From a virus, in IMG/VR virus record IMGVR_UViG_3300012017_000739, positions 1-20,658 of that record: a stretch of 20,658 nucleotides of DNA; one strand, written 5' to 3'. The position numbers were made by a program, and so were the translations under genes. Below, piece after piece: positions 4,106-20,612 of this stretch. The stretch's first letter is position 1. Each line of letters begins with the position of its first letter. Below the pieces are notes generated by a model. The model saw nothing but the letters and a program-made list of their open reading frames with translations. It had not been told where the DNA came from and made no database searches.

Positions 4106-6124
4106 TTAATTTGTTGAAGTAAAACCATATTCAAAATTTCCAACATATACGTTAAGTGAACTTGTAGAAGTTAATTTTTGGCTATAAAATATGTCATTAT
4201 TGCTTACTACTCTAGCATACATAAGGTTTGTATTGTCATACCATTGTGTGTTAAATAATCCACCTGTGGTTGTAGTTAATGTAAATAATAAAACATCATT
4301 ACTTGCATTGAAAATATCTACACTTAATCCACTCCCATCTCCACTGTATCCAAAAACCGAACCACTTATAGGAGTTGTAAATCTGCTTAAAGTAGCAAAT
4401 CTTGTAAATCCGGCTCTATAGGCTGAATTGTTTTGGAAATATCTAAATAATCTATTTGCCCAAGGATTTATATAAGTTGATGGTGGGGCTTCGTTGTATT
4501 TTCCCATTGCATCACTAAATCCTAAGGTACTAACAACAGTTCCTATCTCACTATCTGTATTTAGGGCATCATCATATAGATTAGCATAGCCTATTCCATT
4601 TAATTCATTTGCTAATTTATCTGCTGTAAGTGTGATTCCATTAACTCCAGAACCAAAAGAATAGTTTTGATACCCATGCCCTACTATGTATGTGCTTGAG
4701 GTAATATTTGATGAAAATGGTATAGTTTCAGTCCATTTAGTGGTTACACCTCCTGCGTTTTGAAAATTACCAAAACCTGATGGGACCCATAAATGGTATT
4801 TTGTAGCATAATCTATTCCATTTGAAGGAATATCACTATGGTAATTTATTATATATAATCCACTTACGTTTGTAGCGACAACTGTAGCAGTAGCAAAAGC
4901 TGTTAATTCTAATGTATTATCTCCTCTTGTTAATGTTATTCCGTCATCTATCAAATGTTGTAATACTTTACCACCGCATATTGAACTACCGTTTGTGGTA
5001 TATGGTGTATAGTTTTGTGTTCCAACTTTTATATTTAAATTACTTACGTTTGCTACATCCCCCCAAAAAAATCTTAAAGCACTTTGTTTTAAATTTAGGT
5101 TATTTTCTAATGCTTTAAATGTTCTTGCAGCATAACTGGCATCTGCTGATGTAGTATTTCCTATAGGTGATTGAATATATTGAGGAACTAATAAAGTATT
5201 TAATAAACGTGTGGTATTAGTTTTATTATACTCGTAGGTTACATACAGTGTTGAAGGGATATTATTAAAATCTGCCCCAGTATTTAAATTCATCTGCCAC
5301 GAATGTGGCGCTGCTATATCAGGTAAAGATGAAGTAGGAATAGTCCAAATGTATCTATCGTAAGTATCACTTGCTAAAGCTGATTCTATTGTACCCCACG
5401 TAAAATTTTGTAAAAAGGTAGATGATGATACCTGTGCTCTTAATATTAAATCAGTAGAGGTAACAGCTTGTTCATTACCTTCTATTTCAAAAAAATAATC
5501 TCTAATAACAACATCTGCTTCAGGTAAAAACCCATCACTTCCTGTTAATGCTGGGATAGTCCCAAATGTAGTAAAAGTGCTCGGTATGCTACTTGTTGGG
5601 CTGTTAAAGGGTATAATAGCGGTTTTTAAATAGGTTATATCAGTGTCTTCGTGTTCATAGGTAGCAAATAATTTGGAAGTAAAGTTCCTATACAAACTAC
5701 CAGTTGAACTTTCTGCTATACTTGCTGTTGCTAATGCAAATATTTGAACACTACAACTTAAAGAAGAAGACGCTGCTGGAAAATTATTATTAAAGTATGT
5801 TGCTAGTTCAAATGGAGAAAATACTACCGATATGTGTTCTCCTGTATTTGTTGCTCCTGCTATATTAAAGTTTTGAGGAGATGCTCCTTCAAGTTGAACA
5901 CTTGCTGTAATATTTGTTATATCAAAGGCTGTAGCTAAACCTTGTCTAAAACCCACCTCTAAACCAACAGACTCAAAAACACGATTAGTAGTTTCAGGAA
6001 AATATAATTGTTTAAAACCTAAAGAACTAGTTACAATATACTGCTGTCCAGTATTTGTAGCAGGATTTAGTGATGCTGTTACTGTATTCCAAGCGTAATA
6101 TGCTGTTTTTGCTACTAGTGCCAT
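4106..6124 (-). CDS. Unrecognised large beta-rich virion protein
   Basis: This 672-residue protein is rich in Thr, Ser, Asn and aromatic residues and poor in Lys, the usual look of an extracellular beta-structured virion protein. I cannot place it in a family. No signal peptide, transmembrane helix or collagen repeat is seen. Residues from about 595 (SGSVFGYSGDGSGLSVDIF) resemble the start of a carboxypeptidase-regulatory or transthyretin-like beta-sandwich domain, but this is a weak visual match. Its start codon shares one base with the stop of the collagen-like fibre gene (TAATG), so the two are probably co-translated and may form one appendage. It is followed by a 99-base gap and gp13. A second fibre subunit, a whisker or collar protein, or a head decoration protein are all possible. 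Confidence 0.8.
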   Translation of the reverse strand: MALVAKTAYYAWNTVTASLNPATNTGQQYIVTSSLGFKQLYFPETTNRVFESVGLEVGFRQGLATAFDITNITASVQLEGASPQNFNIAGATNTGEHISVVFSPFELATYFNNNFPAASSSLSCSVQIFALATASIAESSTGSLYRNFTSKLFATYEHEDTDITYLKTAIIPFNSPTSSIPSTFTTFGTIPALTGSDGFLPEADVVIRDYFFEIEGNEQAVTSTDLILRAQVSSSTFLQNFTWGTIESALASDTYDRYIWTIPTSSLPDIAAPHSWQMNLNTGADFNNIPSTLYVTYEYNKTNTTRLLNTLLVPQYIQSPIGNTTSADASYAARTFKALENNLNLKQSALRFFWGDVANVSNLNIKVGTQNYTPYTTNGSSICGGKVLQHLIDDGITLTRGDNTLELTAFATATVVATNVSGLYIINYHSDIPSNGIDYATKYHLWVPSGFGNFQNAGGVTTKWTETIPFSSNITSSTYIVGHGYQNYSFGSGVNGITLTADKLANELNGIGYANLYDDALNTDSEIGTVVSTLGFSDAMGKYNEAPPSTYINPWANRLFRYFQNNSAYRAGFTRFATLSRFTTPISGSVFGYSGDGSGLSVDIFNASNDVLLFTLTTTTGGLFNTQWYDNTNLMYARVVSNNDIFYSQKLTSTSSLNVYVGNFEYGFTSTN

Positions 6125-8091
6125 TAGATATATTGTTCAGTTATCAATTGTAGATTCATAAAAGTTGCATTGTCGTTTGATTCTACTTCAATTATAAAAA
6201 CATCATTTGGGGCAAAAGAAGTAGTCCAACCGCTTACGTTTGTTGAAGATGTTAATTGATTTGCTGTTAATTGTGGTTTATTGCTTCCTACGATAGAATT
6301 AGCATTTGTAGGGATAGTATTATTAGCTTTCCAAATATCTAAAATTGCTGTTGATGATGTGTTAGCAGATAAACGGAATCCTGTAATACTTCCGCTGTAT
6401 TCTGAATAGTATATAGTTTGATTTTTGCTTCCTGTTGTTATGGGTGTAAATATACTCCCTATATTAAATGCTATTACTTTACTTTCAGTTGTTGCTATCC
6501 CTTGTAGAGAACCAGTAAAGGATGTAGCAGTTACACCACCCGCTACCTGTAAGGTGTTTGTTGGTGTTTCTGTTCCTATGCCTACTCTACCACTACCACT
6601 TACAAATAGGATATTAGTTTGAGTAGGTGAACTTACTCGTAATAAGTTACTGTTTGATGCCCCGCTTATGTGGAATGAAGCGGATGGTAATCCTGTCCCT
6701 AGCCCTAATCTACCTTCGTTTGTTATTACTGTTGAACCTGTTGGTGTTATAAAATGAATACTACCACTAACCCATCCTCCAACAGCATCTTCAAATGCGC
6801 TTCTTATTTCTATTTTTGTAGGTGATATTCCTAATAAAGAAGAAGTACCTGCTGTAAAATTATTAGGTACGCCTGGAAGGTAACTATAATTACTATTTAG
6901 TATGTTAATTTGACCTGCTTCTTCATTTACATAGTATTTGATAGGTTTATTGTTAGATAATAAAATATCACTTGATGATACAAATAATTCTAATCCGTCA
7001 TACCTTAATTTAGATTCACCATTTATTGTTCCACCACCAGTTGCAGTTAGTAGATAGTTATCAGTATTATTTGTTACAGCAGGTGTTATGTTAGAAGCGG
7101 TTAATGCGTTTTGGGCCCAACTTGATGTTCCAAATAGAGAACCTGTAAATGAAGTTGCGGTTACACCACCTACTACTTGCAGGGTGTTTGTGGGTGTTGA
7201 TGTACCTATACCTACATTACCATCATTTCTTACAACTAACGAGGCTGATGCATTGCTATTTTCTACTCTTAATGCTGTTGTTGCTGATGTTACACCACTA
7301 CCTTTTATTTCTAGTTTTGCGGATGGTGAACTTTCTCCAATCCCTACAAAACCAGTAGAACCTACAATCCTCATTATTTCGGTTTGGGTAAAACCTCCTG
7401 CCCAAAATGATAAATCATTTGTTCCAAAAATACCACCAAAATCTGATAGCATATAAGCTCCACTAAGTCCAAAACTTGCACTTGGGGTTCCTACTCCAGA
7501 ATGATTGTATCTTATGAATGGGGAATAACTTCCAAAATTATTAGCACCAATACTGTACCCATTTTCAATATTTATATTACCACCAGCAACAGTTAGGGTT
7601 GACAATGGGGATGTTGTTCCTATACCTACATTACCACTTGAACTAATGTACATTCTAACTGAGCCACTTGTTTCAAATTGTAAGTCTTGAGTGTCGTTTG
7701 TACCTAAAACTGCGGTTGCACCAAATGAATTTCCATCTTGAACAAAGGCGTTAACAGGAGATACACCTGAGCTTCCGCTTGATCCGGATGTGCCCGAAGT
7801 ACCTGAATCTCCACTTGAGCCAGAAGTACCTGAATCCCCACTTGAGCCAGAAGTACCGTTTATACCTGAGCTTCCGCTTGAGCCCGATGTGCCTGAACTT
7901 CCACTTAAGCCCGAGGTACCATTTGAACCTGAAAGCCCAACTGTAGATACTTGTATTACTGTTGTTACGGGCTGTGTTACAGTAACTTCTGTATTGCAAA
8001 CTTCACTAATTATATGAAGCTGATTGTCGTTGGTTTGTATATCAACGTTATTATTAAAAGAATCTACTACAATTTGATTTGGTGTAGCCAT
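6124..8091 (-). CDS. Collagen-like tail fibre with repeated GxVGIGT motifs
   Basis: This 655-residue protein has a clear modular build. Residues 1-52 are a non-repetitive head. Residues 53-109 are a Gly-X-Ser collagen-like stalk (GLSGSNGTSGLSGSSG...). From about 150 to 520 the motif GNVGIGTTSP recurs with variants GFVGIGESSP, GNVGIGTSTP, GRLGLGTGLP and GRVGIGTETP, each followed by a short beta stretch such as TNTLQVVGG; this motif is common in phage fibre shafts. Residues about 530-655 form a separate domain with DIWKANNTIPTNANSI and SGWTTSFAPNDVF, a pattern I associate with C-terminal domains of marine phage fibres. That domain may bind the host surface (inference). No S74 chaperone domain is seen. 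It overlaps both neighbours by one base (TAATG). Two copies of an 80-base block inside the gene point to internal duplication. Confidence 0.88.
   Translation of the reverse strand: MATPNQIVVDSFNNNVDIQTNDNQLHIISEVCNTEVTVTQPVTTVIQVSTVGLSGSNGTSGLSGSSGTSGSSGSSGINGTSGSSGDSGTSGSSGDSGTSGTSGSSGSSGVSPVNAFVQDGNSFGATAVLGTNDTQDLQFETSGSVRMYISSSGNVGIGTTSPLSTLTVAGGNINIENGYSIGANNFGSYSPFIRYNHSGVGTPSASFGLSGAYMLSDFGGIFGTNDLSFWAGGFTQTEIMRIVGSTGFVGIGESSPSAKLEIKGSGVTSATTALRVENSNASASLVVRNDGNVGIGTSTPTNTLQVVGGVTATSFTGSLFGTSSWAQNALTASNITPAVTNNTDNYLLTATGGGTINGESKLRYDGLELFVSSSDILLSNNKPIKYYVNEEAGQINILNSNYSYLPGVPNNFTAGTSSLLGISPTKIEIRSAFEDAVGGWVSGSIHFITPTGSTVITNEGRLGLGTGLPSASFHISGASNSNLLRVSSPTQTNILFVSGSGRVGIGTETPTNTLQVAGGVTATSFTGSLQGIATTESKVIAFNIGSIFTPITTGSKNQTIYYSEYSGSITGFRLSANTSSTAILDIWKANNTIPTNANSIVGSNKPQLTANQLTSSTNVSGWTTSFAPNDVFIIEVESNDNATFMNLQLITEQYI
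6506..6585 (-). repeat. Intragenic duplication in the fibre gene, copy A
   Basis: This 80-base block resembles 7136-7215 along its whole length. Both encode PTNTLQVxGGVTATSFTGSL (x is Ala here, Val in the other copy). Differences fall largely at third codon positions, which suggests an old duplication kept under protein-level selection. Confidence 0.75.
7136..7215 (-). repeat. Intragenic duplication in the fibre gene, copy B
   Basis: This is the partner of 6506-6585, of the same length and in the same orientation. After this copy the protein continues with FGTSSWAQNALTAS; after copy A it continues into the C-terminal domain. The duplication therefore joins two different downstream modules to the same linker. 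Confidence 0.75.
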
Positions 8092-8538: not shown

Positions 8539-9261
8539 TTATTTTTTCGAACCGCTGTTTGTTAAACTAATTCCGCTTTCGTATGCGTCTTCGTAGTATG
8601 ATATTAAATCTTCTACTATTGGGTTTCTGTGGTTTGTTTTTAGTGATATTGCGGCTAAGTTTTTAATTTTTTTAGCAGCAGTATATAAAAATCTAAATCC
8701 AGAATCGCGTTTGTTTTTTAAGTCTACTTGGTTGTCGTCACCACAGATTATCATTTTGGAACGTAAACCTAAACGTGTTACAATCATTTCCATTTGTTCG
8801 TGGGTAACGTTTTGTGCTTCGTCTACTATGACCATTGAATCTAAAAAAGTGCGACCACGCATAAAACTAACAGGTACTATTTCGATGTCGCCTTCTTCTA
8901 TGTGTTTTTCTATTTTTACTCGGTCATACAGTGCGTACATGTTTTGGTATATGGGTTGTACCCAAGGGTCCATTTTTTCGCGTAAATCACCAGGTAAAAA
9001 ACCAATTTCTTCTTTTGATACTGTGGGTCGTGTTATGATTATTTTTTCAACTTCTTTCATAAATAGCTTTTCTAGTGCTATTTGACACGCTAAAAGCGTT
9101 TTACCGGAACCAGCAGAACCTGCTAATAACGTAACTGTGTTTTCTAATATTTTAGATTTTGCTTCTTTCTGTTCTTGATTTAATTCTATTTTAAATTTTA
9201 TAGGGTTTTTAGGTTTGCGTTTTTCTTGGAATATTTCATCTTCGTGATGGTTGGAGTTCAT
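8539..9261 (-). CDS. phoH: PhoH-like P-loop ATPase
   Basis: This 240-residue protein shows the full PhoH core: Walker A GSAGSGKT at 48-55, the block ITRPTVSKEEIGFLPGDLRE at about 77-95, Walker B VIVDEAQN at 144-151 followed by THEQM, and CGDDNQVD near 173-180. PhoH is a cytoplasmic ATPase or putative RNA helicase. It is frequent in marine phages, including ones whose hosts do not regulate phoH by phosphate, and its role in infection is unsettled. It lies among structural genes, downstream of a fibre-like gene, which suggests late expression or a hitchhiking position. No phosphate-box-like repeat is evident upstream. The gap before its start holds a weak form of the recurrent motif (coding strand AATTTATA at 9288-9281). 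Confidence 0.95.
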   Translation of the reverse strand: MNSNHHEDEIFQEKRKPKNPIKFKIELNQEQKEAKSKILENTVTLLAGSAGSGKTLLACQIALEKLFMKEVEKIIITRPTVSKEEIGFLPGDLREKMDPWVQPIYQNMYALYDRVKIEKHIEEGDIEIVPVSFMRGRTFLDSMVIVDEAQNVTHEQMEMIVTRLGLRSKMIICGDDNQVDLKNKRDSGFRFLYTAAKKIKNLAAISLKTNHRNPIVEDLISYYEDAYESGISLTNSGSKK

Positions 9262-10236: not shown

Positions 10237-11976
10237 TTAAATAGTGGTTAAACCACTAACATAGATCTTAGCGTAGAACTCAGGACGTAACATCTTCTTA
10301 GCGTAGCGAGTCAATAGACCTTTTCTTGGAGTAAAGGTTTCAGGATCGTACACAAGAGGAGTCATAATTAACGGGATATAAGGGGCAAACACAGCACCTG
10401 TTTCTAGGAACTGAGATCCTTTGTAACCCATCAACATCAAGTTTTCAGTCATATATGGATTCTTATAAACCTTATAACGACCATTTAATGAGCCCATTTT
10501 CTGAACACCAAATGCATATTCCATTTGATCAGCTTCGCCATTGTTTGTAGAAGCAAATCCAGGAATTGATTCAAGGACAGTTGCTACAGTTGGAGAAGTA
10601 ACGATGAAATTAGCACCACCTCTTAAGGTTAACTGATGGATCTTGTTACTAAGTTTTTGTACTTTAGTACCAAGGGTTTGGAACCACTGACCTTGGGTGT
10701 TGTAGAAGGCATTAGCAGTAGCTTGAGTAGCTAAAGTACTACCATTGTACACAGTATTGTTAATAGCTGACCAATATTCAGTACCAGCGGCTGCATCTTC
10801 AATTAACATATCAAGAATTTCGAGGTCAATTTCCATAGAAATGTACTCGCTCATGATGTTTGTTAATTCAGCTTCAGCATCGATGTTCTGATAAGCAGCT
10901 AAGTCTTGTGCAAATTCAGGTGTCCATACAGCTTTCAATTTCTTGGTTTTAGCTGTGATAGGCTGAGATTGCATTCTAACGTTAATCTCTGGGATAACGA
11001 TTTGGGTAGCATTTAAGCTGTTAGGTACAGATACATCAGTTCTGTCTGCTTCAAAATCACCTCTTTGATCGTTACCAGTTAAGGTTTCGTTATTCAAGTT
11101 GGTAGCTTTGTTGTAGTATACTGTAAGAGCATTAGCTCCAGCGGTAATATTAGCAAAGTTAGCAGCACCTGTAAAGAAGAATGAAATGCTATTACCAGTA
11201 TAGTTATAAGTAGTAAACTGCTGTAATAAGCTAGCGGATGTAAAGTTTGAACCACTAACCATTACGAATGCTCTAACACCATCTTCATCAAATACGTTGC
11301 TGATAGTAGTAGAAGCAGTAGCTACAGTAAATTTATAAATTTGGCCAGCTACTACAGATTGAGAGTAAGCAGAATCAAAATTCAATTCACTCCAAGAGGC
11401 CGATACCACACTACCTGTACCAGCTCCTAATGTAGGAGGAACGTTATTTATAGAAGCAGATACCCATACTGAGGAAGAGAACTGGTTAGTAGAATATGCA
11501 AATCTACCAGCACCATATAAACCACCATCAGTTGCAGTAGTTTGGAATGGGAATTGACCTGATGGGTTTCTTTGACCATACAAAGATTGACCTGAGGTAA
11601 ATGGGTTCTTTGTGTTTCCGTATTGGAAATCTAAGAAGAACACAAGACCTGAAGGCATGTTCATAGGTTGAACAGAAACGAATTCTTTAGCTACGATAGT
11701 ACCGAATACTTTTCTTACTAAAGGAAGAGCAATACCAGCCCAGTTTTCACCTGTTGTTTGTACAGTGTAACCTGAGTTAGAGGTGATTTGGTTGGATTCT
11801 ATTACTAATTGCTTAGCTTGGTTTTCTAACAATAAGGACATATTGTTTCTATTGATCTCATCTAGACCTTCTAGGAGACCTGTTTTTGACCATTTACCGG
11901 CCAATTTTGCAGCGTCGCTTTGTAGATTTTTCCACGCGCCAGCTGCGGATTCTAATAATTGCTGTACTTGTGACAT
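10237..11976 (-). CDS. 23: Major capsid protein, gp23-like
   Basis: This 579-residue protein is longer than T4 gp23 (521). The family core is clear: ENWAGIALPLVRKVFGTIVA at about 78-97, followed by SVQPMNMPSGLVFFLDFQYG (T4 has CGVQPMNSPTGQVFALRAVYG). A later block has PITAKTKKLKAVWTPEFAQD and AEAELTNIMSEYISMEIDLE, and the end is RPEFYAKIYVSGLTTI. Residues 1-60 form a charged helical prosegment ending in QAKQLVIE. By analogy with T4, the gp21 protease would cut near Glu60, or possibly Glu51. The region from about 130 to 320 is Ser-, Thr- and Asn-rich and holds most of the extra length, probably an enlarged surface insertion. The gene follows gp22 after 22 bases and ends before a strong terminator, as expected for the most abundant virion protein. 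Confidence 0.95.
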   Translation of the reverse strand: MSQVQQLLESAAGAWKNLQSDAAKLAGKWSKTGLLEGLDEINRNNMSLLLENQAKQLVIESNQITSNSGYTVQTTGENWAGIALPLVRKVFGTIVAKEFVSVQPMNMPSGLVFFLDFQYGNTKNPFTSGQSLYGQRNPSGQFPFQTTATDGGLYGAGRFAYSTNQFSSSVWVSASINNVPPTLGAGTGSVVSASWSELNFDSAYSQSVVAGQIYKFTVATASTTISNVFDEDGVRAFVMVSGSNFTSASLLQQFTTYNYTGNSISFFFTGAANFANITAGANALTVYYNKATNLNNETLTGNDQRGDFEADRTDVSVPNSLNATQIVIPEINVRMQSQPITAKTKKLKAVWTPEFAQDLAAYQNIDAEAELTNIMSEYISMEIDLEILDMLIEDAAAGTEYWSAINNTVYNGSTLATQATANAFYNTQGQWFQTLGTKVQKLSNKIHQLTLRGGANFIVTSPTVATVLESIPGFASTNNGEADQMEYAFGVQKMGSLNGRYKVYKNPYMTENLMLMGYKGSQFLETGAVFAPYIPLIMTPLVYDPETFTPRKGLLTRYAKKMLRPEFYAKIYVSGLTTI

Positions 11977-11998: not shown

Positions 11999-13012
11999 TT
12001 ATTTAATACCTGCTAATTTCTGCCATCTTGCAAACTGATTGTTTACTTCGATGATAGGTTGTTTTGGGGCAGGACCCCCAATTACTTTAGAAGCACCACC
12101 TAACATTGATTCGTTGATTGAAGTTTTCTTTTCTTTTAGACCTTCAAGCAATGTTTCATATACAAGTTGAGCTTCCTTTTTGCTAGTTGCTTTATCAAAA
12201 GCAGTTAGCACTTTTACTTTTTGTGATTCGGTTAAACTCTTAGATTTAAAGATTTTGTTAGTGTAAAGAAGCTTAGCGTTAAGTAAATTGACTTCATTTA
12301 AAGTTGATTGCATTGCTTCGATAGTATCGTATGCTTCTTTAAGTTTCTTTTCAACTTCCTTTACTTTTTTATCTTCTTCTTCTTTTTTCTTTTCAGAAAT
12401 TTTAGCTTTTTTAACTTCAGCCATTAATTCTTCAAGATCAACTTCATCCATCATTTCCTCTTCACCTTCTTCTTCACCTTCTTCTTCGCCTTCCATACCT
12501 TCACCAGCTTCTAATTCACCGGCTTCAACCATATCAGCGATTACGCTTTCGATGAAATCTTTAAGGTCTTCAGCAGACATGTCTTCGATGTCGATTTCTT
12601 CTTCACCCATTTCTTCCTCTTCAGCTACGTTTCCGTGAGCAGTAGAACCTTTAGGGTCATTAAGTAAATCTTCAGCTTCGTTCATTTCTTCTTTACCTTC
12701 TTCCATATCATCGAGTTCTCTAAGGAGGGCTTCTAGGTCAAGTTCTTCATCCATTTCTTCTTTAGCTTCATCCATTTCAGTTTCAGCTTCGTCCATTTCG
12801 TAAGACTCTTCCATTTCCTCTCCGTACCCTTCTTCCATCTCTTCTTTAGCTTCATCCATTTCATCCATTTCAGATAGCTTCATAGCTAACTTTTCTCTTA
12901 AAAATGGTCCAAAGCTTTCTTCAAGAGCGGCTTTTGCATTTGCTATTGCTGTTTCCTTGACAGCTTTAGCGTCGGCGATTGCTTCTTTAAGCAAATCTCT
13001 GTTGCTGTTCAT
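11999..13012 (-). CDS. 22: Prohead scaffold protein, gp22-like
   Basis: I choose ATG 13012 (337 residues). A TTG five codons upstream keeps the frame open, but the GAGG at 13025-13022 is well spaced for the ATG. T4 gp22 (269 residues) is the main internal scaffold, destroyed by the gp21 protease during maturation. Here residues about 50-190 are extremely acidic, with MDEAKEEM-type repeats and runs of Glu. Residues about 195-245 form a Lys/Glu coiled coil. A conserved-looking helical block follows (NLLNAKLLYTNKIFKS, later TAFDKATSKKEAQLVYE). The C-terminus reads QFARWQKLAGIK, an aromatic-Leu-Ala-Gly end I have seen in core proteins of marine T4-like phages. Position directly before gp23 supports the call. 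The upstream leader is unusually structured. Confidence 0.88.
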   Translation of the reverse strand: MNSNRDLLKEAIADAKAVKETAIANAKAALEESFGPFLREKLAMKLSEMDEMDEAKEEMEEGYGEEMEESYEMDEAETEMDEAKEEMDEELDLEALLRELDDMEEGKEEMNEAEDLLNDPKGSTAHGNVAEEEEMGEEEIDIEDMSAEDLKDFIESVIADMVEAGELEAGEGMEGEEEGEEEGEEEMMDEVDLEELMAEVKKAKISEKKKEEEDKKVKEVEKKLKEAYDTIEAMQSTLNEVNLLNAKLLYTNKIFKSKSLTESQKVKVLTAFDKATSKKEAQLVYETLLEGLKEKKTSINESMLGGASKVIGGPAPKQPIIEVNNQFARWQKLAGIK

Positions 13013-13021
13013 TTTGTTTGT

Positions 13022-13025
13022 CCTC
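13022..13025 (-). promoter_or_regulatory. Shine-Dalgarno site of gp22
   Basis: The coding strand reads TTTGAGGACAAACAAAATG. GAGG is 9 bases before the ATG and is the clearest ribosome site in the window, where most starts have only A-rich upstream sequence. It decides the gp22 start in favour of 13012. Confidence 0.65.
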
Positions 13026-13042
13026 AAATTTTTTAGGGGAAA

Positions 13043-13213: not shown

Positions 13214-13873
13214 TTAAAAAAGCAATTTATTTTTTTTACTTCTATTTTCGGATATGGTTAAAGGCTGAGTATTTTTGTAGTTAAAATAGGTGTAACAATC
13301 TTGTTCTGAGTTAATTAAATCTAATGGGTATATGTGGTCTACTTCCCAATAGGTTCCATGATTTTCCCAAGTCATTCCAGTTTTAAATTGGGATTCTAAA
13401 TGGGTTTTATAAGTATTTACATCACATCCCAAATATTTTAATCCACTATGTAATTTAGTTATGTTGTTTTTTTTAATGATTTCATTAACTCTTAATCTAA
13501 TACAATATTTTAGTTTATATATTGGATCATTTTGTTTTCGATTTTTTTGATAGTTTAAATTTTGATTAGTTTTTTTCTGGTATTGATTCCATTTTAAATT
13601 GAAACATATTTTACAATTTGCTCCGACTCCAAAACGTCCTTTTCCAGGTTTAAATTGTATTAATAATAATTCTTGTTTACAACAAGTACATATTTTGTAT
13701 CCTTCTTTTAAATTTTCTTTTAAACGAGGTGATTTTTTAGTTTTATAATGTTTGCTATGATGATTATGGCAACAATCTCTACATTCACGTTGCAACCCAT
13801 CTTTACGAGTTTTGTTTTTGTTAAAATCGTTTAATTTTTTTTCTTGATTACAAGTAGGACAAAATTTTATCAT
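13214..13873 (-). CDS. HNH homing endonuclease with two zinc-binding modules
   Basis: The protein has 219 residues. Two Cys4 modules come first: C5/C8 with C31/C34 (CPTC...CRDC) and C62/C65 with C87/C90 (CTCC...CKIC). A Lys- and Asn-rich linker follows. The HNH core is at the C-terminus: EVDHIYPL at 177-184, Asn201 in NTQPL, and Asn210 with RSKKN. This is the usual form of free-standing phage HNH endonucleases. It lies between intact gp21 and gp22, with 49 bases upstream and a terminator downstream, so it is an intergenic insertion. It is Lys-rich, very AT-rich and visibly different in composition from gp22 and gp23. The recurrent motif lies 11 bases before its ATG. Confidence 0.92.
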   Translation of the reverse strand: MIKFCPTCNQEKKLNDFNKNKTRKDGLQRECRDCCHNHHSKHYKTKKSPRLKENLKEGYKICTCCKQELLLIQFKPGKGRFGVGANCKICFNLKWNQYQKKTNQNLNYQKNRKQNDPIYKLKYCIRLRVNEIIKKNNITKLHSGLKYLGCDVNTYKTHLESQFKTGMTWENHGTYWEVDHIYPLDLINSEQDCYTYFNYKNTQPLTISENRSKKNKLLF

Positions 13874-13922: not shown

Positions 13923-14525
13923 TTAAAAAAGAGGACAGGTTCCGTTAGCGCAGAGGATATCTGTGAGGATGTTGTTTACTTTGGAGTAAGGGTTGATGGT
14001 GTTTTCTTTGCCTTCTTTAATCAGATGCATGTATGAGCCGGGATTTGAAGGAGTACTTACAAAATCGAAACAGAGCAACTCGAAATCGTCTTGCACCTCC
14101 AACGTTTCCCCCATCTGCTTTAGCGAGCCCATTCCTCTACTCGAAACTCCCACCATAACATTATTTTCAATTAAAGCTTTAAGAATATTGCCGGAAGTTG
14201 TTGGAAGAATTTCTATTTTACCTAATACTTTATCACCATCCCACCATAATTCTCGAATGATGTGGGATACATTTTTTAGGTTTATGATTGAAGATTCGGG
14301 GTGATCAAGTTCACCGGTTGCTCTATTTTGTTTAACAACTTCTTGATATTTATCTATTTCACGTTCCCATAAATCCTTTGAATAGTATCTGCCGTTTCCG
14401 TTTTTTACTTCGGCTGTAGCTAATATCCCTTCTACCATAGGGTTACCTGATGGGGCTCTCATACCTTCTGTTAATTGAACAGGAGATATGCTAAACGGGA
14501 TTGTTTCTATGAGTACTTGTCTCAT
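13923..14525 (-). CDS. 21: Prohead maturation protease, gp21-like
   Basis: This 200-residue serine protease is close to the length of T4 gp21 (212). The catalytic His is H75 in GELDHPES and the Ser is S128 or S129 in VGVSSRGMGS, as in the herpesvirus-like fold of phage prohead proteases. ELLCFDFVSTPSNPGS at about 149-164 is the usual closing block. The enzyme sits inside the prohead core, cuts scaffold and capsid proteins after Glu, then degrades itself. The start codon follows the stop of the preceding gene directly (TAAATG). Gene order gp21 - [HNH] - gp22 - gp23 is that of T4 apart from the insertion. Confidence 0.95.
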   Translation of the reverse strand: MRQVLIETIPFSISPVQLTEGMRAPSGNPMVEGILATAEVKNGNGRYYSKDLWEREIDKYQEVVKQNRATGELDHPESSIINLKNVSHIIRELWWDGDKVLGKIEILPTTSGNILKALIENNVMVGVSSRGMGSLKQMGETLEVQDDFELLCFDFVSTPSNPGSYMHLIKEGKENTINPYSKVNNILTDILCANGTCPLF

Positions 14526-15365
14526 TTAGTTTAATTCTTCTTTTATTAAATTGCGAACTAATGAGCGAAGTTTAGATTCCTTTAGAGAATCCAATTTTTC
14601 CTTACTCATAGTATTAAAATTCTTTTTTCTATATTCTAAAGCTTTTAATGCTCTTGATCTATATGGTTCCGGCCATTTTTTATATACTTCTTCATCATCA
14701 GGAACATAATCCACTTCATATTTAATCCAATCAATTTCTTGGTTGTAAGTGTTTTGAATACCTAGTTTGTTTTCTTTTAAATCACCGTATCCACTAGACT
14801 TGTATTTGCCGGTTGGTGCTTTGGGTTCTTTAGATGTTTCTAATCCAATGCCTTTAACAGCAAACATTCCGTTTTTAGCATAATAGTTAATATCTTTAGC
14901 CATGTTTTTGGCTACAATTTGTTTTAATTCGTCTACTGTTTTTTCTGCATTTTTAGGATCATCCATTTCAGCTAAATAACCTATCAAGAATGATTGACCG
15001 TAAACATTGTCTATGTTTTTAGGATCGCTATTATCAAAATTGCTTTCTAAATCTTTAGCTACATCTTTATCTATTTTCTCAAATGTATTTTGATCACCAT
15101 ATTCTTTTTTATCTTTAACACCTACAGCTTCTTTTATGTTTGTATTAAAAATTTTAAACCAATCTGGTTGGTTTGGGTTTTGTGTTGCAATACCACCTAC
15201 TGCTTCGGTTAGGATATTTTTACCCTTTAATATTTTAACAGTATCTTTAAATGTACTGTTTACAGTAAGAAGTTCAGGGAACAAATAGCGAGCTTGTTTT
15301 AGGAAATGATCTTTATTTCCTTTACCCTCTGTAATTTCGATATATTGATTTTGTAATGTTTTCAT
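14526..15365 (-). CDS. Unrecognised protein, candidate prohead core component
   Basis: The protein has 279 residues and no family I recognise. It is charged and mostly helical by appearance. The C-terminal end LKESKLRSLVRNLIKEELN is a short basic-Leu helix seen at the end of several proteins in T4-like marine phages. It includes IKE, which fits the Leu/Ile-x-Glu cleavage rule of gp21. It lies directly before the protease, where T4 keeps the core genes 67 and 68. A role as an internal core protein or cleaved substrate is therefore reasonable but inferred. The recurrent motif ends only 2 bases before the ATG, the closest spacing in the window. Confidence 0.8.
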   Translation of the reverse strand: MKTLQNQYIEITEGKGNKDHFLKQARYLFPELLTVNSTFKDTVKILKGKNILTEAVGGIATQNPNQPDWFKIFNTNIKEAVGVKDKKEYGDQNTFEKIDKDVAKDLESNFDNSDPKNIDNVYGQSFLIGYLAEMDDPKNAEKTVDELKQIVAKNMAKDINYYAKNGMFAVKGIGLETSKEPKAPTGKYKSSGYGDLKENKLGIQNTYNQEIDWIKYEVDYVPDDEEVYKKWPEPYRSRALKALEYRKKNFNTMSKEKLDSLKESKLRSLVRNLIKEELN

Positions 15366-15367
15366 GA

Positions 15368-15377
15368 TTATAAATAT
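15368..15377 (-). promoter_or_regulatory. Recurrent upstream motif ATATTTATAA, copy 5
   Basis: The motif lies only 2 bases before the ATG at 15365 and overlaps the stop codon of the previous gene by one base. If it were a -10 promoter element, transcription would begin inside the coding region, which argues against that simple reading for this copy. Confidence 0.45.
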
Positions 15378-15658
15378 TATGTGTATAAAATTACAGGCGC
15401 ACTTAATGTCCCTAAACTACAAGAAGTTATAAATAGAGGTATTGTAACCCCAGCAGGAAGAGTAAATGAACCACCTGTTCCTTCTATGACCTGTCCTACA
15501 TTATCTATCCCTGCTCCGTATTTGTATGCTGTAATTAAAGAACCGGTAGGAGAATTAATTGAACCAGTTCCTAAACTTTGAATACCAGCAAACGAACCAG
15601 TAGCTGATTGTCCTGCTGTTAATATTACTCCTCCAAAATTTACGGGTATATTTGCCAT
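15377..15658 (-). CDS. Small low-charge protein, unrecognised
   Basis: The protein has 93 residues. It is made mainly of Gly, Ser, Thr, Ala, Ile and Val, with only three charged residues (one Lys, one Asp, one Glu). Alternating hydrophobic and small residues, as in GSFTLPAGVTIPLFITS, suggest a small beta barrel or sandwich rather than a membrane protein. It begins 1 base after the preceding stop (TAACATG), so it is translated with that gene. A small virion decoration or plug protein is possible; nothing in the sequence proves it. Confidence 0.72.
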   Translation of the reverse strand: MANIPVNFGGVILTAGQSATGSFAGIQSLGTGSINSPTGSLITAYKYGAGIDNVGQVIEGTGGSFTLPAGVTIPLFITSCSLGTLSAPVILYT

Positions 15659-15659
15659 G

Positions 15660-16250
15660 TTATTGTTGTTTTGTGTTGTCGTCGGGGGTAAATGAGTTAA
15701 TTATATCGTCTAATAACTCGTTTGTTGAATCTGTTGAATAAACAACAGCATATGATTTGGGATTATTTTTATAATAATCTAAAGTTTTATTTCTTGCTTG
15801 TTGTAGTAATGGGATTAATTGATTTAGCTTTTTTTCTAAAATATTAAATCCTTCTAAACGTTGAGCTAAAAATTTTCTTCTTTCAGGATCAGATACGTTC
15901 AAAGCATTTAAATAATCTTCTACTTCTATAGTTTCCCACAATTGTTTAACTTCAATACCTTTAGCCGCTTTGTTTAAAGCAGGTTGATTTACTAACTTAT
16001 ATTTAAATGTTTTTACATAGGTATTGTCTGTTACTCCTTCAGAACCAGCTTTAGGACCAGGACCCATATTAGCTCCAGGACCTTCTTTAACGGGTTTATA
16101 TCCTACTTGAGTGTATGCTCCGTAATTTCCTTTTGTAGATTTTTTAAAAGCTCTAGGAGCTGCAGTATTTTCACCTGTAGTTCCGGATGTAAAACCAGAA
16201 GTACTAGATATAGTGTTTGTTTCTTTTAATTTGTATTTATACTTTCCCAT
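15660..16250 (-). CDS. Unrecognised protein with disordered N-terminus
   Basis: The protein has 196 residues. The first 80 are rich in Gly, Thr, Ser, Pro and Lys (GKYKYKLKE, then GPGANMGPGPKAGSEG) and are probably disordered. Residues about 100-165 are helical and charged (PERRKFLAQRLEGF, LEKKLNQLIPLLQQARNKTL), compatible with a coiled coil. The tail is acidic. It overlaps the end of the previous gene by 14 bases, a sign of tight co-translation. Its place between portal and protease suggests a head-assembly role, but I recognise no family. Confidence 0.75.
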   Translation of the reverse strand: MGKYKYKLKETNTISSTSGFTSGTTGENTAAPRAFKKSTKGNYGAYTQVGYKPVKEGPGANMGPGPKAGSEGVTDNTYVKTFKYKLVNQPALNKAAKGIEVKQLWETIEVEDYLNALNVSDPERRKFLAQRLEGFNILEKKLNQLIPLLQQARNKTLDYYKNNPKSYAVVYSTDSTNELLDDIINSFTPDDNTKQQ

Positions 16251-17097
16251 GAATATTTTTAATTTCGTTTAAAAGTTCATAGTATTGTAATAAATTAATT
16301 AAATTATCGTCATTAACTTTATGTGATTTAGATAATGGAGTTAACAATTTAATTACTTCGTCTAATTTAATTTGAACTGCTTTATCTGCAATTTTAGGAG
16401 ATAAAGTAGTTAATTTTGTTTTAAGTTCTTCAATTTTAGTGTTATAAAAATCTCTTAGTTTTGGAGTTGAATCTACAGAATTAACAAATTCTTTTAATAT
16501 TGTTTTTTGATCCCCATTCAATGATGAGTATTTTTCATTAAATTTTTCTAAAAGAACTCTATATGCTAAAATACGAAGATCTTTATCGTATGATTGAAAT
16601 TCTACAAGAACATCCTCTTTAATTTTTTGTTTATCAATAGACTTAGACGTTAATGATTCTAAAATATTGATTTTATTTTCAATAAGTTGATCTGGGTTGT
16701 TTATATTAGTATTGTATAATTCTAATAGAGTGTAGAGGGAGGCGTGTAGTTTATAGTTAGGTAATTTGGTTTTAAAGAAATCTTCAATATTGTAATGAGT
16801 AGAAATTTCCTTAATTAAATTGTATTTTTGTCTTTTAATTGCTCCTCGGTTTAAACCTTTAGAAGTTTCTACAATAGAATTAATAACTATTTCAGCCTTG
16901 CCTTCTGTTAAGTTCCTGTGTTTAGATAGGGTTTCATATAATTTATATTCTTTCCCTAGTTCACTTTTAACAAAATATTTTTTTAAAATATTAATTGCTT
17001 TCGATTCTTTTCCGGATAATGTATCTGAGGTGATTTGTCGAACTAAAAGTTCGAATAAAATCCCTGTATTTTTTATCTTTGAGTGTCTTATGTTCAT
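16237..17097 (-). CDS. Unrecognised helical protein downstream of the portal gene
   Basis: The protein has 286 residues, rich in Lys, Leu, Asn and Ile, and appears all-helical. The N-terminus MNIRHSKIKNTGILFELLVR is followed by repeated helix-like stretches and SLYTLLELYNTNINN in the middle. No nuclease, ATPase or zinc motif is seen. It begins 35 bases after the portal gene, with the recurrent motif in the gap. T4 has gp67 here, but gp67 is far smaller, so direct equivalence is unlikely. A core, initiator or packaging-accessory protein would fit the position (inference). Confidence 0.78.
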   Translation of the reverse strand: MNIRHSKIKNTGILFELLVRQITSDTLSGKESKAINILKKYFVKSELGKEYKLYETLSKHRNLTEGKAEIVINSIVETSKGLNRGAIKRQKYNLIKEISTHYNIEDFFKTKLPNYKLHASLYTLLELYNTNINNPDQLIENKINILESLTSKSIDKQKIKEDVLVEFQSYDKDLRILAYRVLLEKFNEKYSSLNGDQKTILKEFVNSVDSTPKLRDFYNTKIEELKTKLTTLSPKIADKAVQIKLDEVIKLLTPLSKSHKVNDDNLINLLQYYELLNEIKNIHGKV

Positions 17098-17132: not shown

Positions 17133-19022
17133 TTATTCCATTATGTTATTTTCGTCTAAAAATGAAATTTCTTCATCTTTTTTGACTAAACTTGGAGATT
17201 TTACTAAACTTTCTATTAGACTTTTATTTTTAAGATATACTTGTTTTGCTTCTAGTGCTAATGGAGACCCACCTTTATATTGAGGGCGAATACTATCAGA
17301 TTCATTGTCATCAAATTTTGCACCTCTATTACCTAATCTGTCTTTTCCAAATGGACTTTCTTGAGAATTTCTATCTGTAGATTTTTCTTCAGGGCGCCCT
17401 AATGGTACTTTTTCATCATATCCATCAGGTACTGAATTGTCCTCGTATCTGCTTCTTCCATATAGTGAAGCTAAATCGTGAGGAGTTCCATATGATTTTC
17501 CTGTTAATTTAGGATCATTTCCTTCTTCGGATACCTGTTTGTTTCTAAAGGCGCGTTTTTGGTCTTCAATAATTAAATCTCTATATTCTTCATATTGATC
17601 TTCACTCAAATGGAATATATTGTCGTAAATCCAATCAGTGGGTAGTAACTTAGTTTCCATAATCTTTTGAGCTAAGTCTACTTTTTGGGTTAATAATGCT
17701 ATTTTTTCTTGATCATATATAATAGACGGTGTTGTTAAATCTAATTCAAAATTTGTTAATTCATCACCGCTATACCCTTGAGCATATAAATGTACTAATG
17801 CTATTTTATATAATTCAGATAATACAATGCGCTGGATTCTGTCAATTGTGCGAGCAAATCTAATATCTTCAGCAGCTAATGTTGCTTTGCCTGTTAAATC
17901 TTTTTCATATCCCATAAATGCTTTAGGCACCTTGAGGGCAGCAAATAATTTGTCTCTTAAATATGTTACGTCTGTAATACCATCAAATTGTAAACCTTGA
18001 GCAGTGTCAATTTTAGTTACAGTATCGTTGCCTCTTACAGGGATATAAAAATCCTCAAGTAAGTTTTGCATATTATATTTTAAATTGTATTGGCCTGTTT
18101 CGTGGTCAATTAATGGAGTACGTTTTAATGTTGAAATAGTTTTTTGCATAAAGTTTTCTACTTCAGCAGGAGGAATAGAACCAACATTAATATAAAATAT
18201 TCTTCTATCTGGGCTACGAGATATTCTATTGATTAACATCGCGTCTTCCATTAGAATATATTGCTTAAATAGCCTACGAGCAGGCTCTAAATATGAACGA
18301 CCATAAGGAAGATAGTTAACATCTGTTATTAATCTAAAATGGGCCATTTCATAGTTATCAAAATAGATAGCATTTTGGTCTTTTTCAAACGCATTAGGTA
18401 CACCATAATATCCTGATCCACCTGAATAGAATCCTTCGGGAGAGTATTTGAATCTTACAGCATTTGGGTGTTCAGGATCATAGTTTTCTTGTCTTTGAAT
18501 ATGATAAGCTGTATAAGGAATAACATTATATACTCCAAATTTTTCAGCTATTTCAAGTTTTAAGAAAAAATCGCCGTATTTATTCATTTGGCGAATCCAA
18601 GACCATAAATTAAACTCGATATTTAATACATCATAAAATAAATTATATAATATTTTTTGAATATCTTCGTTTGAACTTCTGATTTGGAGTACTTCTCCCA
18701 TATCGTTTTTTAAAGTACATTCATCAGATATAATATCTAAAGCAGAAGAAATAATAGCATCGTAATCCATAGTATCATAATCTGAATAGATCATGGTACG
18801 AAGATATTGGTAGTTTATATTTAATTGTTGTCCAAATAAAGAGGTAGAGGATGGAGAGTATAAACGATTATATCTATCCATTATAGAATTTGTTGCTACA
18901 TCTCCTGTTGTTTGGATAGAGTCAACATCAATTACTTTTAATTGGTTTCCTCCTTGGTTGCGAATAATGACGTCTGTTGAAAATAGACGTTTTAATCGGG
19001 TGAATAAACTAGTATCTGCCAT
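17133..19022 (-). CDS. 20: Portal vertex protein, gp20-like
   Basis: The protein has 629 residues (T4 gp20 has 524). Gp20 forms the dodecameric ring through which DNA enters and leaves the head and on which the prohead starts to assemble. The family core is visible: DYDAIISSALDIISDECTLK at about 83-102, a WSWIRQMNKYGDFFLKLE block, PYGRSYLEPARRLFKQYILM, and VPKAFMGYEKDLTGKATLAA with EDIRFARTIDRIQRIVL near residues 370-410. The C-terminal 120 residues (from about SEEGNDPKL) are polar, rich in Arg, Gly, Ser and Asp, and probably disordered; they account for most of the extra length. The gene starts 18 bases after the terminase stop, where T4 has genes 18 and 19. Confidence 0.95.
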   Translation of the reverse strand: MADTSLFTRLKRLFSTDVIIRNQGGNQLKVIDVDSIQTTGDVATNSIMDRYNRLYSPSSTSLFGQQLNINYQYLRTMIYSDYDTMDYDAIISSALDIISDECTLKNDMGEVLQIRSSNEDIQKILYNLFYDVLNIEFNLWSWIRQMNKYGDFFLKLEIAEKFGVYNVIPYTAYHIQRQENYDPEHPNAVRFKYSPEGFYSGGSGYYGVPNAFEKDQNAIYFDNYEMAHFRLITDVNYLPYGRSYLEPARRLFKQYILMEDAMLINRISRSPDRRIFYINVGSIPPAEVENFMQKTISTLKRTPLIDHETGQYNLKYNMQNLLEDFYIPVRGNDTVTKIDTAQGLQFDGITDVTYLRDKLFAALKVPKAFMGYEKDLTGKATLAAEDIRFARTIDRIQRIVLSELYKIALVHLYAQGYSGDELTNFELDLTTPSIIYDQEKIALLTQKVDLAQKIMETKLLPTDWIYDNIFHLSEDQYEEYRDLIIEDQKRAFRNKQVSEEGNDPKLTGKSYGTPHDLASLYGRSRYEDNSVPDGYDEKVPLGRPEEKSTDRNSQESPFGKDRLGNRGAKFDDNESDSIRPQYKGGSPLALEAKQVYLKNKSLIESLVKSPSLVKKDEEISFLDENNIME

Positions 19023-19031
19023 TGTTTTTTA

Positions 19032-19041
19032 TTATAAATAT
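19032..19041 (-). promoter_or_regulatory. Recurrent upstream motif ATATTTATAA, copy 7
   Basis: The motif lies 9 bases before the portal ATG and its first base is the last base of the terminase stop codon. The coding strand reads AATATTTATAATAAAAAACAATG. Confidence 0.5.
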
Positions 19042-20612
19042 TATAGGAGCCAATTAATGCTCTCTTGTCCGTATTTTGTGTCTATCACATATGGGTTTGC
19101 TACTCTATTTGAGTTATATGCTCCGGCTGCTGTATTTTTTGTAATATTTCCAAGAGCGGCTCGGGTCATATCTAAACTTTGTTGTTGGAATTTCAATGAA
19201 GTGTCGCGTAAATACATTCCTACCGCAAAAGACATTACTAGGTCATCGTTGTACCCGGGTTGAGCTTCAGGTCTACCATTTTTCCAAACAAACACCCTCA
19301 TCTCTTCTAATAAACGTTTAGATTGTATTGTGACACTCCTATCTCCAATATATTCTCGCATTTTATTTACTACAAGAGGACGAGTTCTTAACGACATAGT
19401 AAAACCAGGAGTCATACTTGAGTCTCCTTCATAAACTTTTAAATATGATTCTGCAGTAAGTTGATCGGATTTAGGAGAATGATATAAATTTCTATAACCT
19501 CTTTCTAAAATAGCATCTAAAGTAGCCCAACCAATTGTAGCATTTTCTACAACTAGCAATGCATTGTTGTATTCTGTAGCAATAGCAACTAACATATAGC
19601 CAAATTCTTTTGGGGTCATTTGGCCTCTATATTCGGCTATTTGAGAATTTGTAGCAATATCAATTACATGGAATGCTGAAAAATCTTTACCATCTCCTCT
19701 AGCTACATCAGCCATAACCATGTATTCTCTAGAATAATCAGCTGATTCCCATATCCATAAATTTTGGTCTGCTCCTCTGCGTTCCATTGGGTCTTTAAGA
19801 GTAGTGGATTTAATAAAATCTATCCATTCACTATAAAATACTACATCACCTGATGTGTTAAAATCGCAATCACATTCTTGGGCTGCTAATCTAGGGTCAC
19901 CTAGTAGTTCATCTTGGCGTTTTCTCCAAGATTCGTCTCGTTCAGGGTGTACATACCAAGGTAATTTAATAGGTAAGAAATCATTGTCTGCATTTTCTGC
20001 TCTAACCCATGTTTGGTGAAACCAGTTACCTGTCCCATATGGTGTAGATAATACAATAGCTCCACCACCTGTTGCTAAGGTTTGTTGTGCTGAAGCCCAT
20101 ATTTCACCAATATTTTCGATAAATGCTGCCTCGTCAATTAATAGCAAAGATACTGCTTCTGATCTACCAGCATCGCTAGCTGCGGAGGTTGCTTTGATTA
20201 TTGAGCCGTTACTTAAACGTAAAGATAATTTATTATTTTCGTCTGCTGCTACTTTTAACCATGATGGTAAATTATCGTACATGAATTTAACTTTGGTTAC
20301 CATGTTTCGAGCGGTTTCCTGTTTCGTGGCAATACAAAGTACGTTTTTATCTTTATGGAAAGTCATTAACCATAAAGAATATCCGGCAGCTAATGTTGAT
20401 ATACCTAGCTGTCTTGATTTAAGTACGATAGAATATGGGTTGTCTTTCCAAAGTTTTAATACTTTATCTTGGAAAGGAAATAAATTAAATAATACTCTAC
20501 CCCTTTGAGGATGTTGAATATTACAATACTTACGCATAAAATGGCCGGGATCAGTGGCACATTTTATGTATTCTTGTCTAAGTACTTCTTTTATATTTTG
20601 TTGTTCACTCAT
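19041..20612 (-). CDS. 17: Terminase large subunit, gp17-like
   Basis: This 523-residue packaging motor is shorter than T4 gp17 (610). The ATPase half has the Walker A variant SRQLGIST at 66-73 (the classic form in this family), Walker B LLLIDEAAF at 156-164 and the coupling motif LSTPYG at 189-194. The nuclease half has the RNase H-like acidic residues Asp302 in MADVARGDGKD, Glu357 in LVVENA and Asp457 in YNDDLVMSFAVG. The protein docks on the gp20 portal, pumps DNA into the prohead and cuts the concatemer. The shorter length is mainly at the N-terminus. AGG lies 4 bases before the ATG. Confidence 0.97.
   Translation of the reverse strand: MSEQQNIKEVLRQEYIKCATDPGHFMRKYCNIQHPQRGRVLFNLFPFQDKVLKLWKDNPYSIVLKSRQLGISTLAAGYSLWLMTFHKDKNVLCIATKQETARNMVTKVKFMYDNLPSWLKVAADENNKLSLRLSNGSIIKATSAASDAGRSEAVSLLLIDEAAFIENIGEIWASAQQTLATGGGAIVLSTPYGTGNWFHQTWVRAENADNDFLPIKLPWYVHPERDESWRKRQDELLGDPRLAAQECDCDFNTSGDVVFYSEWIDFIKSTTLKDPMERRGADQNLWIWESADYSREYMVMADVARGDGKDFSAFHVIDIATNSQIAEYRGQMTPKEFGYMLVAIATEYNNALLVVENATIGWATLDAILERGYRNLYHSPKSDQLTAESYLKVYEGDSSMTPGFTMSLRTRPLVVNKMREYIGDRSVTIQSKRLLEEMRVFVWKNGRPEAQPGYNDDLVMSFAVGMYLRDTSLKFQQQSLDMTRAALGNITKNTAAGAYNSNRVANPYVIDTKYGQESINWLL

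Follow-up and report, generated by a model that had tools for sequence, protein, structure and literature searches.

What fills the prohead-core slot of a T4-type head operon when the genes found there resemble no known family? The slot lies between the portal and prohead protease genes; phage T4 has only genes 67 and 68 here, and in IMG/VR virus record IMGVR_UViG_3300012017_000739 (positions 1 to 20,658; this whole stretch of 20,658 nucleotides (nt) is called the window below) it holds four open reading frames (ORFs), p286, p196, p93 and p279. A first-pass annotation, made from the sequence alone, had proposed that the set may be an alternative prohead core or a portal-initiation system. We found that the block is probably a lineage-specific prohead-core module of the Far-T4 type, which would replace gp67 and gp68 in function and carry a cleavable, swappable tail on p279. 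A replacement prohead core is the best reading because the genes form a conserved unit and three of their products look like protease substrates. The block and its two neighbors are listed here (CTS, capsid-targeting sequence; a slash follows the Glu of a predicted site).

17133–19022, minus strand: portal protein of the gp20 type (PF07230, E 7e-67)
16237–17097, minus strand: p286, 286 residues; first slot gene after the portal gene; conserved, all-helical
15660–16250, minus strand: p196, 196 residues; short N-terminus ending KLKE, Gly-rich segment, conserved helical C-terminus
15377–15658, minus strand: p93, 93 residues; small, probably beta-rich, without gp21 sites
14526–15365, minus strand: p279, 279 residues; CTS-like N-terminus, conserved core of ~190 residues, variable cassette tail
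15198–15365, minus strand: N-terminal helical region of p279, residues 1–56; CTS-like start MKTLQNQYIEITE/G, second site ILTE/A at residue 54
14526–14780, minus strand: p279 tail; LKE, cassette c5 (IDWIKYEVDYVP...), LKE, leader-like module c10 (SKLRSLVRNLIKEELN)
13923–14525, minus strand: prohead protease of the gp21 type, family S77 (PF03420, E 2e-30; phrog_207, E 3e-58)

The annotation described the locus correctly: the four ORFs are minus-strand genes between a T4-type portal gene and a gp21-type protease gene and are tightly packed, with a 14-nt overlap between p286 and p196 followed by gaps of 1, 11 and 0 nt. Likewise, p93 has only three charged residues (one K, one D and one E), p279 ends in LIKEELN, and the AlphaFold2 model of p286 is all-helical (14 helices; mean predicted local distance difference test score (pLDDT) 79.9). 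The four genes were indeed unrecognized, with no accepted match in Pfam, PHROGs or NCBIfam; the best family match was that of p286 to phrog_27361 (E 9e-4), whose function is unknown. The same searches revealed no homology to enzymes or host-takeover proteins, which the annotation had named as evidence that would speak against its proposal. A structure search with p286 gave no match in PDB at E≤1, and the matches in BFVD were two homologues from uncultured phages.

T4 gp21 cleaves after Glu in Leu/Ile-x-Glu (LxE below), and we compared the occurrence of this motif with that in 2000 within-protein shuffles. In the window p286 we counted 15 sites where 5.5 were expected, a count that none of the shuffles reached, and 24 non-redundant relatives together have 355 against 127 (2.8-fold); these relatives are not independent, so that their z score of 25 is an overstatement, which has no bearing on the result for the single sequence or on the ranking among T4 ORFs given below. 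Only the LxE spacing shows this enrichment in p286: the control patterns LE, LxxE, LxxxE, LxD, LxK, LxQ and FxE occurred at 0.25 to 1.2 times expectation, and across other spacings and end residues the ratio was 0.25 to 1.5, the highest value being for a Leu-Glu distance of eight. When the test was calibrated on T4, an excess was found for gp22 (16 versus 5.9 expected; 2.7-fold), gp21 (7 versus 2.5) and gp68 (5 versus 2.0), and gp17, gp18, gp19 and gp20 were near expectation (ratios 0.8–1.4). Among 126 T4 ORFs of at least 100 residues gp22 ranked 1st, gp21 2nd and gp68 9th, and p286 (z 4.8) would take 2nd place; the ORF in 3rd place has the coordinates of I-TevI, which shows that the motif-density test has false positives. 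Besides, gp22 was enriched 2.0- to 3.3-fold in six of seven other T4-like phages (the exception was AF3, 1.3-fold), and the three highest scores among 79 ORFs of five related loci were those of p286 homologues. The 13 non-core ORFs of the window showed a slight excess when pooled (49 versus 35 expected), with single p values that include 0.030 and 0.048.

The window protease belongs to S77 by both its PF03420 profile and its GELDHP and GVSSRG motifs, which correspond to GELNHP and GVSSRG of T4 gp21 and which we take to contain the catalytic residues. Its target motif seems to be still in use in the lineage, because the sites of 29 distinct capsid proteins cluster near the N-terminus (4.53 per 100 residues in residues 1–70 versus 0.53 in residues 71–400); a section of PMC9958956 describes how the T4 protease cuts away the first 65 residues of gp23.

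With regard to conservation, at least 598 relatives of p286 were found in IMG/VR. Neighbor counts rest on 80 loci kept from these, with three phage-collection records (L001–L003) and the window itself (L084) left out. The order portal-p286-p196-(p93)-p279-protease was found in all 56 loci that had portal, p286, p196, p279 and protease, and 24 of these complete blocks included p93, every time between p196 and p279. Portal and p286 occurred together in 79 of the 80 loci, p286 directly following in each, with gaps of 29–42 nt in 75 loci and small overlaps, due to extended start codons, in 4; p286 and p196 occurred together in 77 loci and their genes overlapped in all of them. The number of p286 relatives and the kept gene order indicate that the four ORFs are more than chance ORFs, and the slot genes are one conserved unit. 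In the phage collection, relatives of p286 were found in four Immutovirus records, Microcystis phage Mel-JY01 and the uncultured jumbo phage LR756508. Four of the seven genome-collection matches carried Bacteroidota titles (two Flavobacteriaceae, one Chitinophagaceae and one Bacteroidetes), which fits the hosts proposed for Far-T4-like viruses in a section of PMC7198788; the other three were two bacteria without a name and one alphaproteobacterial metagenome-assembled genome. Gene order and a phoH-like gene in the window also fit the description of Far-T4 phages in parts of PMC4360716; the main text of that article does not contain the words protease, scaffold, prohead or gp21.

The conserved part of p279, its first ~190 residues, contains two nearly invariant sites. 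Site 1, an I-x-E before GKG at residue 13, was LxE in 104 of 112 relatives, and site 2, at residue 54 beside a gappy linker, in 111 of 112, the sole miss being cut off by a contig end. AlphaFold2 predicted residues 1–50 to be helical (pLDDT 83–92). The start of the protein, M-K-T-L-Q-x-x-Y-x-x-I-x-E, resembles MKTYQEFIAE of the T4 internal proteins IPII and IPIII. When a p279 N-terminal profile was scored on 847 start contexts from ~122 kb of T4, some of them mechanical ORFs rather than genes, IPII and IPIII tied for 4th and 5th place, and they alone had MKTxQ. This likeness is suggestive, short of proving homology. Use of the N-terminal module as a tag across several genes was considered and rejected, as each of 12 genomes had a single strong place for it; one further weak match was seen (E 0.034). 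In T4 (L196), a 54-residue ORF starting with MKTFKEFIKED, probably modA.4, is CTS-like and ranked 10th of the 847 contexts; it may be an unrecognized packaged protein.

The build of p279 is mosaic, with a tail behind the core that has been swapped among close relatives. Among 100 complete distinct proteins, tails had at most 9 residues in 44 and at least 30 residues in 52, and the longer ones consist of recurring in-frame pieces in varying order. These cassettes were counted from 22 seeds chosen by eye, 20 from p279 and 2 from gp079 of Flavobacterium phage immuto (record NC_055915, host Flavobacterium sp. LMO8; immuto below), so that the counts are lower bounds. The window tail (represented by its identical twin, L106) reads c5 then c10. 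Other tails read c6-c11-c10-c5-c10-c13-c1 (L016) and c22-c9-c8-c10-c7-c1 (L041), c5 being found in a different order in L016 and with different partners in L011. For example, L005 and L006 are 99% identical to the window in portal, p286 and p196 and 96% in the best segment of p279, and have c10-c1 where the window has c5-c10; L004 is nearly tailless and L024 has c10 only. Cassettes also occurred outside p279, c13 in the 841-residue immuto gp079 and c12 in a 654-residue ORF of L190 and as a free-standing 93-residue ORF in L192. None reached Pfam cut-offs or an accepted family, and matches to PHROGs were weak (e.g., Srd anti-sigma, E 0.02). Neither these slot genes nor a cassette polyprotein cut by gp21 was the subject of any paper found in the open-licence PMC literature. 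Two large cassette-built proteins, immuto gp079 (L001:3503-6028) and S-SM2_109 (L193:4698-6824), are located near terminase genes; pieces are common to a Flavobacterium phage and many Synechococcus phages, and parts of immuto gp079 other than c13 match hypothetical proteins of the latter.

It is conceivable that these tails are neutral recombination debris on a permissive C-terminus, an explanation limited to the tail, which leaves room for a core role of the block. The 44 nearly tailless proteins indicate that tails are dispensable, and near-identical phages have completely different ones. We consider debris unlikely, though worth weighing, since the same cassettes return in frame in different orders, one of them is a separate ORF, and homology tends to end near LxE sites: in 44 retained tails, 53 of 131 distinct homology ends lay within 3 residues of a site Glu versus 25.3 expected (0 of 2000 shuffles), some of these ends being the shared core-tail junction and hence not independent.

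The third candidate substrate is p196. An alignment of 19 relatives had only ten invariant columns, one of which, Glu10 (19 of 19), ends an LxE directly before the Gly-rich segment, with Met in place of Leu/Ile in L023. An LxE within 14 residues before this segment was found in 69 of 72 distinct relatives. Some relatives have an extra domain inserted between the N-terminal KLKE and a second site, and leaders like MKERIREIVRKVLKE and MSKRDKIKDLIVKRLKE stand at the start of many. We propose that p196 is a core or internal protein processed by the gp21-type protease.

The core role is argued from sequence statistics, from which we also infer cargo loading and the location of slot proteins in the prohead, their cleavage, packaging and ejection. 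In the suggested mechanism, p286 would be an accessory scaffold protein that the gp21-type protease cuts to pieces at prohead maturation, and p196 and p279 would be core or internal proteins cut by the same protease at fixed LxE sites at domain edges. The N-terminal region of p279 would direct it into the core, in the way that the capsid-targeting sequence does for T4 internal proteins, and in many phages p279 would bring along a cassette tail with LxE sites between the cassettes. Cutting would release the pieces within the head, from where ejection together with the DNA would be possible.

Several observations weigh against this interpretation. Comparisons with single T4 sequences revealed no homologue among gp67, gp68 and gp22: p286 and p279 as homologues of gp67 or gp68 were rejected at hhalign probabilities of 0.06–0.44%, and p286 as a gp22 homologue for want of a profile match. 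A true core protein, T4 gp67, has no excess of sites (3 versus 2.6 expected). Enrichment is weak in the window p279 (z 2.2) and p196 (z 1.6), scores equaled or exceeded by 10 and 21 of the 126 T4 ORFs, respectively, and p279 cores are also rich in LxxE (1.68-fold). The p279 model is poor as a whole (pLDDT 59.2). With the p279 N-terminal profile, T4 IPI ranks 26th of 847, and three other contexts, one probably the start of thymidylate synthase, outrank IPII and IPIII. As for the tails, the starts of cassette homology are not significantly close to sites (8 of 32 versus 4.6 expected; 141 of 2000 shuffles), and the cassette-bearing immuto gp079 and L190 ORF show no LxE enrichment.

The weak single-protein enrichment of p196 and p279 would be expected if only p286 were core and the other two were permanent internal or neck-proximal (e.g., portal-associated) proteins, in which LxE marks domain linkers for other reasons; the conserved helical C-terminal domain of p196 indeed looks like a stable fold. 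We regard this as quite unlikely, as linker function alone does not explain near-invariant LxE sites such as Glu10 before the Gly-rich segment of p196 and site 2 of p279. A portal-initiation system, the second proposal of the first-pass annotation, or an assembly-chaperone system (membrane anchoring or portal folding) in place of a core appears very improbable: it fits the place of p286 directly behind the portal gene in 79 of 79 loci and gives no reason for 2.8-fold protease sites, the T4 portal having 1.3-fold.

The replacement prohead core is proposed for three of the four proteins. Slot, site statistics, domain-edge sites and CTS-like start support it for p286, p196 and p279; p93, with no gp21 site and absent from 32 of 56 complete blocks, stands apart. 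Its window copy has no LxE, and 17 non-redundant relatives have 1 versus 3.2 expected. One copy per genome, adjoining p279, was found in 9 of 12 large contigs, and no family was found in Pfam (20 members searched), NCBIfam, PHROGs or PDB sequences. p93 may be a component of the head surface. A spike-base or decoration protein was considered, as its C-terminal pattern is by eye like that of immuto gp065, and was not supported by hhalign (0.3%). This gp065 (L001:18088-18357; 89 residues) follows the capsid gene, matches a PHROG named tail fiber and by eye resembles the head-spike base protein of RcGTA. Tandem duplicates of p93, with diverged copies, were seen in L007:3118-3699 and L038:2299-2838.

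The LIKEELN end of p279 belongs to the recurrent module c10 (KLRSLIRxLIKEEL). In the 484-kb LR756508, about 12 small ORFs lie between p286 and the protease, six of which start with forms of MKxxEQKLRxIIRxEIxxV, like c10 inside p279. The leader pattern was found in 8 of 33 head-block genes of LR756508 versus 1 of 97 genes from three control regions of this genome (p 6e-5), a contrast partly built in, as the pattern was drawn from that head block, and in 0 of 200 in T4. At E≤10, a leader profile gave 30 matches for LR756508 (all candidates from the initial inspection); three IMG/VR contigs of the lineage had 8, 5 and 2, immuto had 3, Mel-JY01 had 2 and T4 had a single one, located within an ORF, and P-SSM4, RN05-S and S-SM2 had none. 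Six of the eight matches in the 155-kb contig G018 begin an ORF and finish L-x-E, and one match is c10 of its own p279. LxE within the leader was ruled out as independent proof of cleavage, as the pattern itself favors I-K/R-E. A tentative proposal, which we hold with more doubt than conviction, is that the amphipathic leader KLRxIIRxEIxxVLxE might be a second capsid-targeting signal, distinct from the T4 CTS, with which Far-T4 and some jumbo phages load many small, fast-changing proteins into the prohead core. These would be separate slot genes in LR756508, whereas the window lineage would have fused some of them to p279 in a cleavable row, and a single gene would thereby send a number of exchangeable cargo peptides into the host along with the DNA. 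Separately, the protease ORF of LR756508 (L003:18323-20047) has 574 residues versus the usual 200, and its long extra part, which follows GELDHP, might be an intein or insertion.

The other features considered in the window are as follows.

19041–20612, minus strand: terminase
13214–13873, minus strand: HNH-like ORF between the protease and the scaffold candidate
11999–13027, minus strand: acidic scaffold candidate of the gp22 type, proposed from position and composition
10237–11976, minus strand: major capsid protein of the gp23 type (PF07068, E 3e-75)
8539–9261: phoH-like gene

The scaffold candidate had no family match in Pfam or PHROGs, and 19 non-redundant relatives have 316 LxE versus 184 expected. 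The ORF at 13214–13873 is presumably HNH-like and that at 2173–2832 in the tail region presumably GIY-YIG-like, both judged by their motifs; in L032 a relative of the former separates the terminase and portal genes. Two ORFs downstream of the head genes, 2–742 (extending past the window edge) and 6124–8091, have long collagen-like SGTSGTSG repeats.

If the block is a replacement prohead core, gene families of unknown function in a common group of uncultured aquatic phages gain a testable role, and the T4 core could be rebuilt from unrelated proteins with the protease motif retained. The motif-density test would be a cheap means of finding core and internal proteins of phages where homology gives no guide, and the portable leader could serve sequence-based prediction of packaged proteins. 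Besides, a cargo tail that changes among near-identical phages would flag phage proteins under host-defence pressure.

Among known systems, T4 gp22 has nearly the same LxE density as p286 (2.7- and 2.8-fold); the window phage differs in having its own acidic scaffold candidate, and p286 has no profile match to gp22. T4 IPII and IPIII share with p279 the MKTxQ start, an aromatic residue, I-x-E followed by a small residue and a variable mature part, and a section of PMC3012670 describes T-even internal proteins as a highly diverse defence set in which the CTS alone is conserved. In contrast, p279 has a conserved core of 190 residues and often a cassette string, is located in the head operon and has its first site at residue 13 rather than 10. 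Head ejection proteins of SPN3US and phiKZ are also addressed by propeptides, which a gp21-related protease removes (PMC5694885, in part); these propeptides often exceed 100 residues, and the same part of that article does not describe a cassette polyprotein. Far-T4 phages and Immutovirus are alike in the order terminase-portal-protease-capsid with phoH near, and the immuto slot contains p286 (gp073), a short p196 (gp072) and p279 (gp071), which the immuto record names merely hypothetical. In seven of nine fetched T4-like records (AG-345-O18 and Goe21 were left out, their slot not being assigned), slots had one gene in P-SSM4 (112 residues), AF3 (69) and CJLB-10 (55) and two in heyday (56, 104), pEa_SNUABM_44 (77, 291), RN05-S (68, 182) and phiWae14 (54, 158). 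Slots of these phages contain few genes, most of them small; the window lineage, with three to four slot genes including a conserved one of 286 residues, is unusual among the T4-like phages compared. As for T4 itself, gp67 and gp68 occupy the same slot and are broken down by gp21, according to a section of PMC9958956, and gp68 and p286 are both enriched in the gp21 motif. The differences are that profile similarity is lacking, that there are three to four genes instead of two, and that p286 is double the size of gp68 and has neither the acidic tail of gp67 nor the basic tail of gp68. By homology the block falls outside the gp67/gp68 family, yet it would work like one.

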